Virus record (IMG/VR): IMGVR_UViG_3300044811_000029
Span: 1-45,719 of that record
Strand: one strand, 5' to 3'
Length of the DNA stretch: 45,719 nt
Source: a virus
The notes under the pieces are model-generated. The model saw only the letters and a program-made list of their open reading frames with translations. It searched no databases and was not told where the DNA came from. Below, one piece after another: positions 5,373 through 41,042 of this stretch. The position numbers were made by a program, and so were the translations under genes. The stretch's first letter is position 1. Every line of letters begins with the position of its first letter.

Positions 5373-5671
5373 TGGGCACGCCGGAGATCGGCTACTTCCG
5401 GGGCGCCGGCGGCATCGTCTTCGACTTCCACCTGCCGCTCACCGAGCAGCAGCAGCAGCAGGTCACCCGAGGCGAGCTTGTGCGCGTCAACGAGGACGGC
5501 TCGCCGTTCGAGGCCCACAGCACCATGGATCTCGCGAACGGCGAGTTCCGCCGGCCCGGCGTGAATGCACCGAAGAATGAGTGGGTCGGTTACGCCGTCA
5601 GTCAGGGCTCATCGGTCGATGACGCGGACGCGATGACGAAGAACGACCTCATTGAGAAGTACGGCAAGTGA
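5372..5671 (+). CDS. Head-region protein of unknown function
   Basis: A 99-residue protein starting at an ATG that overlaps the previous stop by one base (TGATG coupling). It contains a QQQQQ run near residue 30 and a charged C terminus ending LIEKYGK. The size and place between a decoration-type protein and the connector match small head-completion or capsid-associated proteins, but I see no diagnostic motif. Confidence 0.6.
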   Translation: MGTPEIGYFRGAGGIVFDFHLPLTEQQQQQVTRGELVRVNEDGSPFEAHSTMDLANGEFRRPGVNAPKNEWVGYAVSQGSSVDDADAMTKNDLIEKYGK

Positions 5672-5689
5672 GCGAGGGGGCGAGTTTCG

Positions 5690-6259
5690 GTGGCTGACCA
5701 GCTGGTGACACCGTCGGAGCTCGCCTCCGCAATGCAACAGGACCTGGACACCGCCACGGCCACGCTGATGATCGAGATGGCGACCGGCAAGGTGCAGACC
5801 GCGGCCGGGCAGTTGCTGGTCGCGGGCACGTCTACCGCGGTGATCGACGTGGAACTGCAGGACTGCGACGAGTACCTGGATCTGCCGCAGTGGCCCGTCC
5901 GGTCGGTGGCGTCGGTGCTGATCGATGGCGTGGCGGACGCGACGTGGCTGCTACGTGGTCAGCGGCTGTGGCGGCTGTACGGCTGGTCGAGGAACTGGTG
6001 GCAGCCGACGCAGGTCACGGTCACCTTCACCCACGGCTATCTGGCCGGCGCGCAGGGCCTGCAGCTGGCCCGGGGCATGGTGCTGGCGCTCGCGCAGGCG
6101 GGCTACGGCAACCCGAGTAGGTCAACGTCCGAGGCGATCGACGACTACAAGGTGACCTACGCCGAAGCGGACGCCCGGATGCAGGTCACCGACAGCATGC
6201 GTGACCAGCTCCAAGCGGCGTACGGCACAGGCGTGTACGTGATCAGCTCGCGGGCCTGA
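5690..6259 (+). CDS. Head-tail connector (adaptor) protein
   Basis: A 189-residue protein starting at GTG 5690. The N-terminal part is helical with paired helices around a short acidic segment (MQQDLDTATATLMIEMAT), followed by a beta-rich middle with VTVTFTHGY, the motif typical of HK97 gp6 / SPP1 gp15-like connectors. These form a ring under the portal and prepare for tail joining. The stop overlaps a possible 13-codon micro-ORF. Confidence 0.8.
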   Translation: MADQLVTPSELASAMQQDLDTATATLMIEMATGKVQTAAGQLLVAGTSTAVIDVELQDCDEYLDLPQWPVRSVASVLIDGVADATWLLRGQRLWRLYGWSRNWWQPTQVTVTFTHGYLAGAQGLQLARGMVLALAQAGYGNPSRSTSEAIDDYKVTYAEADARMQVTDSMRDQLQAAYGTGVYVISSRA

Positions 6260-30202: not shown

Positions 30203-30432
30203 TGGTGCGCAAGGCCGGCCTCGACGCGATGTTCTCCGTCGAGTACGCCTGCCCCCGCCGCTGCCAGGTCGAGTTCGACCTGTCCGATGTCCAGGTCCGT
30301 TTCACCCTCGGCCAGATGCTCGCCAAGGCCGAGGCGGCCCACGACGAGGCGCACACGGTCGAGCGCAGGGTGTACCGCGCGGGCGACATGCTCGTCCGCG
30401 CCGCCGTCCTGACCCCGGCGGTGGCCAGGTGA
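30202..30432 (+). CDS. Small early protein with a Cys pair
   Basis: A 76-residue protein (ATG 30202) starting VRKAGLDAMFSVEYACPRRCQVEF, a C-x3-C motif. Directly upstream of, and overlapping, the exonuclease gene, so it may be an accessory factor of the recombination module. Function not recognised. Confidence 0.5.
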   Translation: MVRKAGLDAMFSVEYACPRRCQVEFDLSDVQVRFTLGQMLAKAEAAHDEAHTVERRVYRAGDMLVRAAVLTPAVAR

Positions 30433-31460
30433 CCGCCGTCGAGCTGCTGCCGCCAGCGGAAGCGGTGCATGGCAACGACCGCTGGTATGAGGTCCGACGC
30501 GGCGGGATCACAGCGTCGGAGATCGCCATCGTGCTCGGCATCTCCCCGTACGGCTCGCCGTTCTCGTTGTACTGGCAGAAGCTCAACGACTGGCGCGACG
30601 ACGGCAACGAGTTCACGTCGGCCGGGCGGCACCTCGAGGACGCCATCGCCGACTGGTGGATGGCCGAGTGCGACCCGCTGGAGAACCTCGTCGCCGCCCC
30701 GGCCGGGCTCTACGCCAACGCCGAGCGGCCGTGGCAGCTGGCTACGCCGGACCGGCTGCTTCATGAGGCGTGCCCGTGTTGCTCGGATGGGCAGTGCACC
30801 TGCGGCCTCTACGGCAACTGCTCCGACTGCTACAACACCGGCCTTGGGGGTCCGGCGCACGCGCTGCTCGAGTGCAAGTGGGTGGCCTACAGCTGGGACG
30901 GCTGGGGCGAGCCCGGCACCGACGAGATCCCCGTCTACTACCGGGCGCAAGCACTCTGGCAGCTCGACACCCTCGACGTCGATGAGGTCCACTTCGCCGT
31001 CCTCGGCCCCGGCGGCTTCCGGGCGTACGGCCCGATCCGCCGCGACCGCAATGACCTGGCCGTGATGCGGCGTGAGGGGCTGCTGTTCCATCAGCGCCTA
31101 CAGAACGGCGACGCCCCAGACCTGGACGGCCACTCGGCCACCATCAGCGCGCTGCGCAAGCTGCACCCCTCGGTCGGCGAGGGCGACGTCGAGGTGGACG
31201 TCGAGCTGGCCGTCAAATACCGCGTCGCCCGGGCGGCCAAGAAGGTCGCCGAGGAGCGCATCGCCGAGTGCGAGGCCGAGATCCGGGCGGCACTGGGCAG
31301 CGAGTTCAACCGGGCCGTGTGCAACGGCAAGCTCGTCGCCTCCCGAAGCGTCTACGACCAGTCCGGCGATTCCGCCGAGCTGACTGCCCTCGAGGACGAC
31401 TGGCCCGTTGTCGACCGCCTCAACCCTGGCCGCTCGGCCAGCTATGCCAAGGAATCCTGA
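30429..31460 (+). CDS. YqaJ/lambda-exonuclease-type recombinase nuclease
   Basis: A 343-residue nuclease of the PD-(D/E)xK superfamily, partner of the RecT annealase 0.6 kb downstream. It would chew one strand of broken phage DNA so RecT can pair the ends. Motifs: RGGITASEIAIVLGISPY near the start, E70 in HLEDAIADWW, D108 in ATPDRLL and E148-K150 in LLECKW. Between the last two lies an insertion with seven Cys (residues 115, 117, 118, 123, 125, 131, 134), suggesting an Fe-S or zinc site not usual for YqaJ. A helical C-terminal region (about 255-300) follows. Confidence 0.85.
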   Translation: MTAVELLPPAEAVHGNDRWYEVRRGGITASEIAIVLGISPYGSPFSLYWQKLNDWRDDGNEFTSAGRHLEDAIADWWMAECDPLENLVAAPAGLYANAERPWQLATPDRLLHEACPCCSDGQCTCGLYGNCSDCYNTGLGGPAHALLECKWVAYSWDGWGEPGTDEIPVYYRAQALWQLDTLDVDEVHFAVLGPGGFRAYGPIRRDRNDLAVMRREGLLFHQRLQNGDAPDLDGHSATISALRKLHPSVGEGDVEVDVELAVKYRVARAAKKVAEERIAECEAEIRAALGSEFNRAVCNGKLVASRSVYDQSGDSAELTALEDDWPVVDRLNPGRSASYAKES

Positions 31461-32024: not shown

Positions 32025-32924
32025 ATGCCTGAGACCGTCAGCAACGCCGTCGCCCAGCGACAGAACACGCCCGGCGAGCTCATCAAGCAGTACAGCAGCA
32101 GCTTCGCCAGCGTGCTCCCGACGCACGTCAAGCCGGAGACGTGGGTACGCCTCGCCCAGGGCGCGCTGAAGAAGGGCAAGCGGATCGACGCGCCCAACCA
32201 GAAAGACCCGGACCACCGGTTCAACGGCATGTTCGAGCTCGAGGTGGCCGCCGCGAACAACCCGGGCGCGTTCCTCGCCGCCCTGCTCGACGCCGCCCGC
32301 CAAGGCCTCACCCCCGGGTCGGAGGAGTACTACCTCACCCCGCGCAAGGTGAAGGGCCAACGCGAGATCCTCGGCATCACCGGCTACCAGGGCTACGTCG
32401 AGCTGATGTACCGGGCCGGCGCCGTGTCCTCGGTCATCGTCGAGGTGGTCCGGCAGAACGACCGCTACCTCTACCGGCGCGGCATCGAACGTACGCCGAT
32501 CCACGAATTCCCGGCGTTCGCCCGTGAGGTCGACCGTGGCCCCCTGATCGGCGCGTACGCCTACGCCGAGATGCTCGGCGGCGCCGTGTCCCGGGTGGTC
32601 GAGCTGAACCTCGACGACATCGAGCGCATCAAGGCCGTCAACACCGGCTCCAGCTACGACAGCTCGCCGTGGGTGAAGTGGGAGTCCTCGATGTGGCTGA
32701 AGTCGGCTGCTCGTCAGCTGCGCAAGTGGGTGCCCACGTCGGCCGAGTTCCGCAAGGAGCTGGCCCGGGCCGCCGGTGAGGCGCAGCGGGTCGCGTCGGC
32801 ACCGGACGCGCCGGTCGGGATCGACACGCCGCAGGGCGACACCATCGAGGGCGACTTCAGCGACGACGGCACGGCCGGCGACTGGCCGGAGACGACCCCG
32901 GTGCCCGGTGATGGCGATGCGTAA
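32025..32924 (+). CDS. recT: RecT-family single-strand annealing protein
   Basis: A 299-residue annealase that would pair complementary single strands made by the neighbouring exonuclease. The family signature is clear: NNPGAFLAALLDAARQGLTPGSEEYYLTPRK, then ILGITGYQGYVELMYRAGAVSSVIVEVVRQND. The C-terminal 50 residues are acidic and probably disordered. ATG 32025 follows a GAGGAGAG site. The ArsR-like gene overlaps its last 14 bases. Confidence 0.95.
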   Translation: MPETVSNAVAQRQNTPGELIKQYSSSFASVLPTHVKPETWVRLAQGALKKGKRIDAPNQKDPDHRFNGMFELEVAAANNPGAFLAALLDAARQGLTPGSEEYYLTPRKVKGQREILGITGYQGYVELMYRAGAVSSVIVEVVRQNDRYLYRRGIERTPIHEFPAFAREVDRGPLIGAYAYAEMLGGAVSRVVELNLDDIERIKAVNTGSSYDSSPWVKWESSMWLKSAARQLRKWVPTSAEFRKELARAAGEAQRVASAPDAPVGIDTPQGDTIEGDFSDDGTAGDWPETTPVPGDGDA

Positions 32925-33404: not shown

Positions 33405-33604
33405 CCGCCTACGGCCTGCTCTGGGAGCTGACGAAGCACGTCCTGCACGGCCGAGGCCGTGACGTCGTCGTCATATGCGTCAAGCTCGCCGAGGAGGGGA
33501 CCATCGACGGCCCGGAAATCGCTTCGGGCGAGGACGTCTCATTCAGCTGGCCGGGCGACCCCGACACGTTCTGCATGCTGTCGTCGGACCAGGTGATCGC
33601 ATGA
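33401..33604 (+). CDS. Small early protein, function unknown
   Basis: A 67-residue protein (ATG 33401) with beta-type segments (GRDVVVICVKL, DVSFSWPGDPDTFCML). Overlaps by 4 bases with both neighbours and precedes the resolvase. No recognised domain. Confidence 0.55.
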   Translation: MTAYGLLWELTKHVLHGRGRDVVVICVKLAEEGTIDGPEIASGEDVSFSWPGDPDTFCMLSSDQVIA

Positions 33605-34185
33605 TCCGGCCGCTGCGGGCCATTGGGCTCGATTTGTCCTTGACCGGCACCGGGATAGCCGTCACGCACGACCAGCTGGGCGAGCCCCGGCTGTCGTGCC
33701 GCACCGTCTCGCCCCGCAAGCGCAAGTCCCCCAACCGCATCGACCACGAACGCCTACACGAGACATTCGCCGCGATCGCCGCGGCCGTGCAGTGCAAGCC
33801 GGACCTGATCGTCATCGAGGAACCGCTGCACGTCGACGGCAAGGGCGACACCAGCATCCGCCTCGCCGAGCTGCACGGCCCGATCAAACACTGGATCTGG
33901 AGTCGGGGCATCCCGTACGTCGACGTACACCTGACCAAGGTGAAGACCTACGCGACCGGCAACGGCAACGCCGACAAGCCGACTGTCTTCGCCGCCGCGA
34001 TCGCCCGGTACGGGCGGCTACTGCACATCGGGTCGTACGACGAGGCCGACTCGCTGACGCTGCTGGCCATGGCGCTGGACCACTACGGCCAGCCGCTGGT
34101 CCCGGTGACGGCCACCTCCTATACCCGCGCCTTCGTCGATATCACCTGGCCAAAACTGGATCTTCAGGAAGGCGGACTGAAATGA
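33601..34185 (+). CDS. RuvC-like Holliday junction resolvase
   Basis: A 194-residue nuclease of the RNase H-like fold. Acidic residues are in the RuvC order: D11 in IGLDLSLTGTG, E73 in LIVIEEP, and D147/D150 in SYDEADSL, with K126 in ADKPTV. It would cut branched recombination intermediates before packaging, completing the exonuclease-annealase-resolvase set. ATG 33601 overlaps the previous stop. Confidence 0.85.
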   Translation: MIRPLRAIGLDLSLTGTGIAVTHDQLGEPRLSCRTVSPRKRKSPNRIDHERLHETFAAIAAAVQCKPDLIVIEEPLHVDGKGDTSIRLAELHGPIKHWIWSRGIPYVDVHLTKVKTYATGNGNADKPTVFAAAIARYGRLLHIGSYDEADSLTLLAMALDHYGQPLVPVTATSYTRAFVDITWPKLDLQEGGLK

Positions 34186-34579: not shown

Positions 34580-34695
34580 TCGCCGCCCTGGGCGCCCTCG
34601 CCGTCGTCGGGGCGGCCCTGTGCCTCTGGGCGCTGTGGGATGCGCGGCCCGACACCCGCGACTACGGGCCCCGCCACGCAGGGGAGGCCCGATGA
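34576..34695 (+). CDS. 39-residue membrane peptide
   Basis: A 39-residue frame (GTG 34576) with one clear membrane helix (LGALAVVGAALCLWALW) and a charged tail. It overlaps both neighbours by 4 bases and could only be expressed by coupling. Confidence 0.5.
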   Translation: MIAALGALAVVGAALCLWALWDARPDTRDYGPRHAGEAR

Positions 34696-35234
34696 CCGCC
34701 CCGGCGGACGGCCTGTCGACGTCGGCGCGGCTGGCCAAGGCCGAGCGGGAACGCGACGAGGCCCGCGGGCAGCGCGACAAGTTCATCGCGGCCGCCGACA
34801 AGCTCCACGGCGAGTGGCTGGACCTCAAGGCCGAGATCGGGCGGCTCAAGGCCGAGGCCGTGACGTCGGCCGACAACTACCTGCTGGTCGCCGCCGAGCT
34901 GTCCAGCGCCCGGCAGGACCTCGACGTTCTGCGCAAGAGCCTCAAGGGCAGCGCGACAACCGCGAGTGTCGCGCTGCGGGACCTGGCCGAGACCCGCGCC
35001 CAGCTCGCCGACATGCAGGCGGCGGCCGAGGAGAAGGTCCGCGCCGTGCTCACCGCACCGACCGGCGACGTCATCTCCCAGCAGACCCGCTACTGGTGCG
35101 AGACCTGCGGAGCCCGCTACGGCCAACCGTTCGACCACCCCCACGGGCCACTGACCTCCGTCACCGTGACCACCACCCGCGCGCCCCGACTGTTTCCCGC
35201 CACCACCACCAACCAGGAGGAAGGAGTCCGATGA
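34692..35234 (+). CDS. Coiled-coil protein with C-terminal CETC motif
   Basis: A 180-residue protein, mostly a long coiled coil (about residues 10-120) followed by WCETCGARYGQPFDHPHG, a Cys/His knuckle that may bind zinc. It ends 4 bases into the repeat-protein gene. Function unknown; may be an oligomer scaffold. Confidence 0.6.
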   Translation: MTAPADGLSTSARLAKAERERDEARGQRDKFIAAADKLHGEWLDLKAEIGRLKAEAVTSADNYLLVAAELSSARQDLDVLRKSLKGSATTASVALRDLAETRAQLADMQAAAEEKVRAVLTAPTGDVISQQTRYWCETCGARYGQPFDHPHGPLTSVTVTTTRAPRLFPATTTNQEEGVR

Positions 35235-36547
35235 AGCGCATCACGACACTGACCGAGGAGCAGCGCGCCGCCATGGACGCGCACGCCGACGAGTGGATCG
35301 CCCACGGCTGGTCGACAGAGCCGGCCGACTGGGCACTGTTCGAGTCCGCCGCCGAGCGCTGCTACGGGTTCGCCGGCCTGCCATGGCATGGCAACGTCGT
35401 GCGGGTCTCGTCACCGCTGGTGTTGTCTCTCGCTGCCCCCGCGGCCGCGTTCGTGCTGACGCTGCGAAAGCAGCCCGCCGACGCGGTGGGCGACGCGGTG
35501 CACGACGCGGTGGGCGGCGCGGTGGGCGACGCGGTGGGCGGCGCGGTGCACGGCGCGGTGCACGGCGCGGTGCGCGGCGCGGTGGACGGCGCGGTGGGCG
35601 ACGCGGTGCACGACGCGGTGCGCGACGCGGTGCGCGACGCGGTGGGCGACGCGGTGGGCGGCGCGGTGGGCGACGCGGTGGGCGGCGCGGTGCGCGACGC
35701 GGTGGGCGACGCGGTGGGCGGCGCGGTGGGCGACGCGGTGGGCGGCGCGGTGCGCGACGCGGTGGGCGACGCGGTGGGCGACGCGGTGGGCGACGCGGTG
35801 GGCGACGCGGTGCACGACGCGGTGGGCAAGGGGACCCTCGAAACCATCAGTCGTATCTGGTACTACCGGCTCTGGGGCAACCTCTGGCCGTACTGGCAGG
35901 CCTACAACAGCTTCTTCCGCGACCACTGCCAACTCGAACTCGACGGCGACCTCTGGGACCGGTCCCGCGCCTACGAAGACACCGCCAAAGCCGCCGGCTG
36001 GTGGTGGCCCCACAAAGAGTTCGTCATGGTCTGCGACCGGCCCGCCGTCCTGCACCTCGAACAGATCGGGCCCCGCGGCTGGGGTTCACACCGGCTCCAC
36101 TGCGAAACCGGGCCGGCGATCGCCTGGCGCGACGGCTACGCCCTGCACTACTGGCACGGCACGAAAGTCCCCGCCGACCTGGTCGAAGACGACGGCTGGG
36201 ACACCGCGCGGATCCTCGCCGAACCGAACTCCGAGGTGCGGCGCTGCGCCATCGAACGGATCGGCTGGGACCGGTTCATCGCGGACGCCAACCTCAACCA
36301 GGTTGGCCAGGCCGCCCCGGACCCGGGCAACCCGGGCAACACGCTGACCCTGTTCGACGTGCCCGAGCAGATCTACGAAGAGCCGATCCGGGTGCTGCTG
36401 TGCACCAACGGCTCCGTCGAGCGCGATGGCACCCGACGCCGGTTCGGCCTCACCGTCCCCGCCTGGCACGACGACCCCATCCACGCCGCGGCGTGGACCT
36501 ATGGCCTTGATCCGTCCGAGTACCGGCAGGCAGAAGCCCGCCGGTGA
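35231..36547 (+). CDS. DUF6745-like protein with a 29-unit tetrapeptide repeat
   Basis: A 438-residue protein in three parts. Residues 1-82 are an N-terminal domain (MKRITTLTEEQRAAMDAHADEWIAHGWS, later AAAFVLTLRKQ). Residues 83-198 are 29 copies of a tetrapeptide ending in A-V, with Gly/Asp, His/Asp, Arg/Asp or Gly/Gly before it, encoded by a 12-bp tandem repeat. Residues 199-438 are a Trp/Tyr-rich domain (WYYRLWGNLWPYWQAYNSFF, GPAIAWRDGYALHYWHG, CTNGSVERDG) that I associate with DUF6745, seen in actinobacteria and their phages. AGGAG precedes ATG 35231. It is followed by a partner gene in the same order I recall from host genomes. Function unknown. Confidence 0.7.
   Translation: MKRITTLTEEQRAAMDAHADEWIAHGWSTEPADWALFESAAERCYGFAGLPWHGNVVRVSSPLVLSLAAPAAAFVLTLRKQPADAVGDAVHDAVGGAVGDAVGGAVHGAVHGAVRGAVDGAVGDAVHDAVRDAVRDAVGDAVGGAVGDAVGGAVRDAVGDAVGGAVGDAVGGAVRDAVGDAVGDAVGDAVGDAVHDAVGKGTLETISRIWYYRLWGNLWPYWQAYNSFFRDHCQLELDGDLWDRSRAYEDTAKAAGWWWPHKEFVMVCDRPAVLHLEQIGPRGWGSHRLHCETGPAIAWRDGYALHYWHGTKVPADLVEDDGWDTARILAEPNSEVRRCAIERIGWDRFIADANLNQVGQAAPDPGNPGNTLTLFDVPEQIYEEPIRVLLCTNGSVERDGTRRRFGLTVPAWHDDPIHAAAWTYGLDPSEYRQAEARR
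35477..35824 (+). repeat. 12-bp minisatellite, 29 tandem units
   Basis: Each unit has GCGGTG plus six variable bases (often GGCGAC or GGCGGC). The 60-bp blocks 35641-35700 and 35701-35760 are identical, showing recent duplication of five units. As 12 is divisible by 3, unit gain or loss stays in frame. Several other frames on both strands also stay open here purely because of the repeat. Confidence 0.95.
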
Positions 36548-36567
36548 ACACCCAACGAGGAGCAGAA

Positions 36568-36969
36568 GTGAACACTCTCGCCACGATGGAAGCCCGCTTC
36601 GGTGTGACTCATCTGGAGCACCTGGACCGCGAGGCGGCGATCCCGGTCGTGTCCCTGGTCGCGTTCCAGGGCGACGTCGCGATCCTGCGACGTGCCCGGG
36701 CCGCGGCGACCACGCCGATCCCGGCGGCCGGCTACCCGGTGGTCGCCGGGGAGAACGGTGGCAACACGCATGCCGTGTACGGGGTCGGCTTCTACGACCC
36801 GGCGCCGCGTTCGGATACGGAGCTGCTGCTGGGCGTGCTGACCGTTCCGGATGGGGAGCAGGTGCTGCTCAGCCACCCGGAACACGGCGGCTTCCTGATC
36901 GAGCCGGGCACCTACGAGATCCGCCGCCAGCGTGAGCAGGCCGACGAAATCCGGCTCGTCCAGGACTGA
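36568..36969 (+). CDS. Partner protein of the repeat gene
   Basis: A 133-residue protein (GTG 36568; GAGGAG is well placed, so the GTG at 36544 is less likely). The C terminus, QVLLSHPEHGGFLIEPGTYEIRRQREQADEIRLVQD, is a motif I associate with genes that sit beside DUF6745-like genes in actinobacteria. This pairing suggests a two-gene unit. A stable hairpin follows. Function unknown. Confidence 0.65.
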   Translation: MNTLATMEARFGVTHLEHLDREAAIPVVSLVAFQGDVAILRRARAAATTPIPAAGYPVVAGENGGNTHAVYGVGFYDPAPRSDTELLLGVLTVPDGEQVLLSHPEHGGFLIEPGTYEIRRQREQADEIRLVQD

Positions 36970-39901: not shown

Positions 39902-40296
39902 TGGGCCGCCAGCACCGCGTGCGCCCTGGCCGCCGCCGCGAAGACATCCTCTACAAGGTCCACGTCTGGCGCTCTATCGCCGTGCTGATCACGGACGATC
40001 CCCCATTTCCTGATCCCGGGGCTCGTCGTCTGCTGGCCGCGAGCCTCATGCACATCTTCGGGCAGGCCGAGTCGCCCCTGTTCCCGGCGCGAACGCCCGA
40101 CGAGTTCATCGCGTGCGTCAAGGAGCTGCACGAGGCGAAGATGCTCGGCGTCGAGGACGGTGTGGCCTTCGTGGCCTTCCCGGACCGCGACGCACTCGGC
40201 CGGACCTACGCCCGGCGCGTGCCGCGACACGAGATGGGCGAGTTCATCGAGGCGCTGCGGCAAAGCATTGCCGAGGACCCCAGCGGTGACCAGTGA
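39901..40296 (+). CDS. Early protein upstream of the initiator
   Basis: A 131-residue protein (ATG 39901) with a basic N terminus (MGRQHRVRPGRRREDILYKVHVW) and a mixed helical/beta body. It overlaps the initiator start by 4 bases, as helper or loader genes often do. No family recognised. Confidence 0.55.
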   Translation: MGRQHRVRPGRRREDILYKVHVWRSIAVLITDDPPFPDPGARRLLAASLMHIFGQAESPLFPARTPDEFIACVKELHEAKMLGVEDGVAFVAFPDRDALGRTYARRVPRHEMGEFIEALRQSIAEDPSGDQ

Positions 40297-41042
40297 GCTA
40301 CGAGGCCGTCCGCTGGGCGCTCTACGACGCGCCGATGCTGCTCACCTCCGCAGGCAAGCCGGATGCCACGGCGCGCCTCGTGCTGATTGCCCGCGCCGAG
40401 CGGGCCGACAAGCATGGCCGCAACACCTACGCCGGACCGGCTGACCTGATGAAGAGCACCGGCCTGGACGAGCGGACGATCCAGCGCGCCGACCGCAGGC
40501 TCGAAGAGTCGGGGCAGATGATCCGCGACGGCATCTCGCACGTCGGCACGGTCCGCTGGCGGCTCGCCATGACGCTGAAGCAGTCCGATACGGAGAAGGC
40601 GACCGCCGACCCTCGGATTGAGCGCCGGCGCGAGGCGGACAAAGAGCGAATGCGACGCCACCGAGACCGGCAAAAAGCTGTCGCTGAAGCACGCACGGAG
40701 ATTGCTGTCACGGATTCTGCGTCCGTGACGTCACGGACTTTAAATCCGAACGTCACGGATTCTGCGTCCGTTCGTCACGGATTTAACGCCCCCCAAACCA
40801 CCAATGAACCACCAAGGGAACCACCAGTGGGAACCACCCCTGGGGGCACGCTTCCCCCAGACCCCCTGCGACCCCCCTCGCCTTCGGCTCAGGGGACCGA
40901 GCCGCAACCGTCAATCACGGAATCACTCACGCCAGCCCAAGACCAACAGGGTGACCCACTCCCGCACGCGAACGCGCGAGATCCGAGCCCGGCCGAGCAC
41001 CTCGCCACCGTCACCGACTTCTTCACCCGAGAGGCGATCTGA
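40293..41042 (+). CDS. Replication-initiator-like winged-HTH protein
   Basis: A 249-residue protein (GTG 40293). Residues about 5-95 form a winged helix-turn-helix (ARLVLIARAERADKHGRNTYAGPADLMKSTGLDERTIQRADRRLEESGQMI), then a basic RRHRDRQKAV region and a long disordered Pro/Ser-rich part, and a short helical C terminus. This layout resembles phage replication organisers (lambda O, DnaD-type). The gene contains four GTCACGGA iterons in its middle, as lambda O contains its own origin. I therefore propose it binds these sites to start replication. No helicase or primase motif is present. Confidence 0.65.
   Translation: MSYEAVRWALYDAPMLLTSAGKPDATARLVLIARAERADKHGRNTYAGPADLMKSTGLDERTIQRADRRLEESGQMIRDGISHVGTVRWRLAMTLKQSDTEKATADPRIERRREADKERMRRHRDRQKAVAEARTEIAVTDSASVTSRTLNPNVTDSASVRHGFNAPQTTNEPPREPPVGTTPGGTLPPDPLRPPSPSAQGTEPQPSITESLTPAQDQQGDPLPHANARDPSPAEHLATVTDFFTREAI
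40707..40781. promoter_or_regulatory. Iteron array, candidate replication origin
   Basis: GTCACGGA occurs at 40707, 40730, 40752 and 40774: 23, 22 and 22 bp apart, about two helical turns. A 16-bp palindrome TCCGTGACGTCACGGA (40722-40737) places one copy on the other strand, and an AT-rich TTTAAAT lies between. A 20-bp segment starting GTCACGGATTC is repeated exactly at 40707 and 40752, including silent positions. The array lies within the initiator-like gene. Confidence 0.65.
40796..40838. repeat. AACCACC direct repeats
   Basis: AACCACC occurs at 40796, 40807, 40819 and 40832, spaced 11, 12 and 13 bp, just downstream of the iterons. It is coding sequence as well (Thr/Pro/Glu-rich). It could be a helicase-loading or primase site, or simple low complexity. 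Confidence 0.4.

Follow-up and report, generated by a model that had tools for sequence, protein, structure and literature searches.

What does a phage protein gain from 29 consecutive copies of a four-residue unit, and is this run of units a variable functional part of the protein or merely a spacer? The question is raised by two adjacent genes, here called A and B, of a 45.7-kb viral record that also carries portal, maturation protease, head, tape-measure and antirepressor genes. The window referred to below is the whole of this record, 45,719 nucleotides in length. The A-B pair is flanked on one side by genes for RecE (30429-31460), RecT (32025-32924) and RuvC (33475-34185) and on the other side by a replication initiator gene (40293-41042), and it is on this position that the description of gene A as an early gene is based. 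The replication initiator gene itself holds tandem repeats at 40707-40844 (a 22-bp repeat in 3.5 copies and a 13-bp repeat in 3.6 copies), and these resemble an origin with iterons inside an initiator gene. The features of the locus are as follows.

33475-34185, + strand: RuvC-like Holliday junction resolvase, 5' of the pair (PHROG 159, E 6.5e-36)
34620-35234, + strand: gene 5' of A that overlaps the start of A; not confidently assigned to a family
35231-36547, + strand: gene A, 438 aa, with an N-terminal domain, a tetrapeptide array and a DUF6745 domain (open frame and translation)
35231-35476, + strand: N-terminal domain of A, residues 1-82, kept in array-bearing relatives (tblastn); AF2 pLDDT 77-96 over residues 1-80
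35477-35824, + strand: array of A, 29 in-frame 12-bp units encoding x-(D/G)-A-V (unit list, TRF, entropies)
35645-35764, + strand: two adjacent, identical 60-bp blocks, units 15-19 (35645-35704) and units 20-24 (35705-35764) (unit list)
35966-36529, + strand: DUF6745 domain of A, residues 246-433 (PF20530, E 7.5e-33, 114 bits, cut-off 27)
36568-36969, + strand: gene B, the partner, with conserved motifs QGDV, GE(N)GGNTH, HPEH and RRQRE (ORF, PHROG 27831, alignment)

The array of gene A and the partner gene B

Gene A begins behind a strong Shine-Dalgarno sequence. Every unit of its array ends in GCG GTG, the first residue (X1) is G, H, R, D or A, the second (X2) is D or G, and only nucleotides 1, 2 and 5 of the unit vary. 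TRF places the array at 35479-35827 (29.1 copies, score 516) and ranks it as by far the strongest tandem array in the window. The twin blocks sit within the longest exact repeat, which is 95 bp long at a spacing of 60 bp. The use of GCG for Ala in 29 of 29 units has a probability of approximately 2e-20 under the gene's own codon use outside of the array, which indicates that the array is not due to chance. Since the Ala codons outside of the array are GCC 27 times and GCG 8 times, codon bias is rejected as the cause of the constant GCG. The profile match places gene A in the DUF6745 family above the curated cut-off. Thus, the 29 in-frame units, the identity of two neighbouring 60-bp blocks and the DUF6745-like domain after the array, all of which the initial annotation had claimed, are borne out.

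The frame of gene B opens at GTG 36544 and ends at 36969. GTG 36568 is the likelier candidate for the true start, given the Shine-Dalgarno-like GAGGAG just 5' of it. The product matches PHROG 27831 with an E value of 3.8e-17 over profile positions 2-124 of 124.

A and B form a linked two-gene module

At loci found with B as the query, a DUF6745 gene adjoins B in 50 of 50 cases (23/23 viral loci and 27/27 actinobacterial genome loci). Likewise, the DUF6745 alignment as query gave 80 viral loci, the kept subset of 521 relatives in one scan, and B is present at 75 of them; at the five loci where B is missing (L115, L116, L131, L140 and L153), the contig stops on a side where B could be. Among 396 Actinomycetota genomes, DUF6745 is found above cut-off in 10, and B adjoins in eight of them. 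Over these searches, the two families co-occur far above chance. The association reaches past the Actinomycetota, as the pair is also present in Microcystis phage Ma-LMM01 (gp175-gp174), Deinococcus, Methylobacterium and Streptomyces. Whether B precedes or follows A differs between loci. A and B are therefore a linked module, and one that recurs in hundreds of viral contigs. The initial annotation had described a partner of this type beside such genes in host chromosomes and had proposed the actinobacterial comparison; both now have a clear positive answer. Genes of the STM4011-STM4015 family adjoin the pair in Deinococcus, Methylobacterium and Streptomyces (loci L058, L060, L170 and L171).

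Array length and unit order among relatives

Most phage and prophage members of the A family carry the tetrapeptide array. Some relatives (L008, L009, L039 and the chromosomal types) do not, so the array is not essential to the A core. Among relatives, array length ranges from 5 to 57 units.

Array length and order change fast among near-identical prophages. The M. abscessus prophages prophiGD102-1 (L029) and L113 carry 46 and 19 units, respectively, in scrambled order, and their downstream flanks are identical over 4147 nt, with a single difference in 2833 nt upstream. A further M. abscessus copy (L115) also shows 0 differences over the 4147 nt downstream and has at least 20 units before its contig ends. 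The unit types of L113 are all found in L029 as well, and its junctions RG-WG and WD-RG are absent from L029, indicating that the L113 array did not arise simply by collapse of the L029 array during assembly. In N. farcinica, the copy at L102 carries 15 units and that at L156 carries 38, between flanks that are approximately 97% identical. These lengths carry a caveat: of 84 arrays, 25 are cut by a contig end, the pattern that failure of short reads would produce, and lengths taken from short-read assemblies may be wrong. According to PMC8092301, the GD-series genomes derive from Illumina MiSeq reads, some of them with Nanopore reads as well. A nucleotide search for phages near-identical to the window found none. 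The claim that the array changes length thus holds in relatives. The initial annotation had named a fixed repeat number, together with chance co-occurrence of the two families, as the outcome that would count against a variable functional unit, and neither was observed.

Unit order along the arrays is random, and in the arrays analysed we found no preferred lag of the kind that a solenoid might give.

Three further observations concern repeats at these loci. In N. farcinica NCTC11134, the 15-kb record called 'plasmid 3' shares 5.9 kb at 99.9% identity with a segment of the 2.66-Mb 'plasmid 2' record (L061 and L156), and the L061 array is out of frame through an indel that is absent in L156. 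A 15-bp array of 11.7 copies, CCTGTCCGGGGCCAA, lies at the end of locus L018 (8334-8508). Locus L162 has a second 12-bp array (5448-5757, 25.8 copies) at a distance from its DUF6745 gene.

Variation within the units is concentrated on two residues

Across 2194 units from 84 arrays, nucleotide 1 has a median entropy of 1.40 bit, nucleotide 2 of 0.77 bit and nucleotide 5 of 0.93 bit, and the median is zero at the remaining nine. The unit register used here is the one of four rotations that was picked to maximise entropy at nucleotides 1, 2 and 5. For this reason, a contrast between wobble and other positions, which does not depend on the register, counts for more. We pooled the 72 arrays of 12 or more units (1918 units, parsed automatically), leaving out three irregular arrays (L024, L061 and L080), and found 75 minor-allele copies on the four wobble positions against 1991 on the other eight. 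Nucleotides 1, 2 and 5, which specify X1 and X2, account for 1897 of the 2066 minor-allele copies (92%). By site, the counts are 893, 435 and 569 at these nucleotides against 28, 12, 22 and 13 at the wobble positions, and 44 of the 72 arrays show zero variation outside of nucleotides 1, 2 and 5. The wobble positions are almost invariant within an array yet differ between arrays. The constant positions as a whole make up 33 distinct frames. Related arrays are not all independent, and this figure gives an approximate idea of how many separate homogenisations have taken place. X1 is mainly G, R, D, W, Y or H and also S, E or N, X2 is D, G, A or S, X3 is A, Q, S or G, and X4 is V, L or T.

This distribution bears on several explanations of the array. 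The initial annotation had offered a plain spacer as one of its suggestions, and this is disfavoured, since the units differ chiefly at X1 and X2, with constant synonymous sites. It is scarcely credible that the array is a functionless neutral minisatellite. Its unit is GC-rich and of the slippage-prone kind, and its copy number varies, but neutral turnover predicts synonymous variation at least equal to non-synonymous variation. The observed variation is the reverse of this expectation, by more than thirtyfold per site, and arrays as long as 57 units keep an open frame. In a small neutral simulation, wobble diversity tracked whichever mutation rate was chosen.

The association between variable sites is 0.257 bit at 1 bp and 0.01-0.05 bit at 12 bp, so that neighbouring units are close to independent; a drop of this kind with distance is what recombination predicts. 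A second regularity concerns stop codons. A occurs at nucleotide 2 in 38 of 38 arrays in which the X1 codon ends in C or T, as compared to 6 of 34 in which it ends in G or A (p 1.8e-14). Its rarity in the latter group is explained by the fact that T followed by A would there create a stop, and this signature indicates that selection acts on translation. We accordingly regard it as very unlikely that the repeat matters as DNA, as a recombination, replication or packaging site that the protein merely tolerates. The array does adjoin recombination and replication genes; however, the constant bases differ among the 33 frames while the four-residue period and the X1-X4 classes persist.

That exactly three of 12 nucleotides vary in array after array would also be expected if targeted mutagenesis, of the type carried out by diversity-generating retroelements, rewrote these nucleotides. 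We consider this highly improbable. Reverse transcriptase (PF00078) is absent from 15 of 15 phage records, some of which are fragments, with positive controls; adenines of the constant codons CAG, ACC and AGC do not vary; and the sister prophages have common unit types and differ by shuffling. For these three reasons, we prefer selection on the protein to a mutator, and the data argue strongly for diversifying selection on X1 and X2. X1/X2 diversity with constant synonymous sites would be a direct sign of selection for variety itself.

Predicted structure and possible role of the array

The initial annotation had proposed structure prediction and fold searches for both proteins. AF2 models gene B (pLDDT 88.8) and the end domains of gene A well; the array is poorly modelled, as helices, with pLDDT 44-61. 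The hope of a known fold was not realised, as fold searches of A and B against PDB and BFVD returned no named match and a sequence search of solved structures returned nothing convincing. In these searches, gene B resembled one uncharacterised phage protein (E 2.5e-4). VIA-align of gene B to a cupin barrel gives a Z of only 2.0-2.4.

An array of glycine-zipper membrane helices is a most doubtful explanation of the four-residue period. A passing match to this model occurs in L011 (54.9, cut-off 27) and a weak one in P0001 (18.5 bits, cut-off 25), but glycine shares X1 with many other residues (W, R, D, Y and H) and is found there in only 556 of 1918 units rather than at each fourth residue, and most units contain charged residues.

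The reading that we favour, with a confidence somewhat short of even, is that A and B form a module whose array is shuffled by recombination, is selected for variety at X1 and X2, and probably serves as a multivalent contact arm. Protein A would consist of a conserved DUF6745 core and an arm of X1-X2-X3-X4 tetrapeptides. X3 and X4 would form a constant scaffold, conceivably helical, from which X1 and X2 would present variable side chains. Recombination inside the array would quickly alter copy number and order, and might be carried out by the RecE/RecT annealing system that the phage itself encodes. Such turnover would homogenise neutral differences, and selection on the protein would keep X1 and X2 diverse. 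The arm may well be a contact surface, multivalent and directed at a target that varies or that needs many weak contacts; contact with a varying host target would fit these data.

A possible, though less likely, alternative is a linker role for the array, as a low-complexity sticker-and-spacer segment (R, W, Y or D combined with G) that promotes clustering or solubility, such that composition is selected rather than a specific contact. The X1 residues are those typical of sticker-and-spacer segments, unit order is random and scrambled in the sister prophages, and lengths vary across the whole range given above. The strict four-residue period and the nearly invariant V, L or T at X4 speak against such a linker, as do the presence of aromatics in only 53 of 72 arrays and a mean net charge that is negative with a wide spread. 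Because order is scrambled between sister prophages, as well as random along arrays, composition and not a specific surface may be what counts, and the contact-arm reading accommodates specific contacts and overall composition alike. A more specific version of that reading, which we consider rather improbable, is a combinatorial recognition array in which each four-residue turn shows one or two variable side chains. Shuffling of units would then retune the binding of the DUF6745-B module to one or another component of the host or of a rival phage, and the array would, if this were true, be an expandable adaptive binder encoded by phages. The array offers a straightforward and testable starting point for work on this conserved gene pair.

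Comparison with known systems

Neither A nor B has a match in NCBIfam or among the PADLOC profiles of anti-phage defence proteins that were already described for the 2023 library. The literature searched contained no mention of DUF6745, and nothing on point was found there on DUF6745 or tetrapeptide arrays in phages. Pentapeptide-repeat proteins share with the array a short period and one hydrophobic residue per unit, but their period is five rather than four, and the array has no family match.

Diversity-generating retroelements of phages diversify proteins at set codon positions. The array is like them in being phage-encoded diversification of this kind and differs from them in that no reverse transcriptase was found and there is no adenine specificity here. 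In the TALE arrays of Xanthomonas, tandem units are near-identical save for two adjacent hypervariable residues, and recombination changes copy number and order. The array of gene A resembles them in the layout of its variable residues and in recombination-driven change. However, TALE repeats are approximately 34 residues long and bind DNA, whereas the period in gene A is four residues, outside the 33-35 residues of TALE-like repeats, and there is no evidence of DNA binding for the array.

The closest comparison is with DUF6745 proteins of Streptomyces, Deinococcus and Ma-LMM01 (gp174), in which, as here, the C-terminal domain scores above the curated cut-off and a small partner gene adjoins. 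These proteins lack the tetrapeptide array, as do the genes examined from Nostoc, Aulosira, Kovacikia and Ma-LMM01. Five chromosomal DUF6745 proteins (L049, L051, L053, L054 and L057) have long hydrophobic, membrane-like stretches where the array would be. In the Deinococcus and Methylobacterium proteins, what appear by inspection, with weak profile support, to be leucine-rich-like repeats precede the domain in place of the array (L058 5359-6369, L170 2368-3390 and L171 2368-3369).
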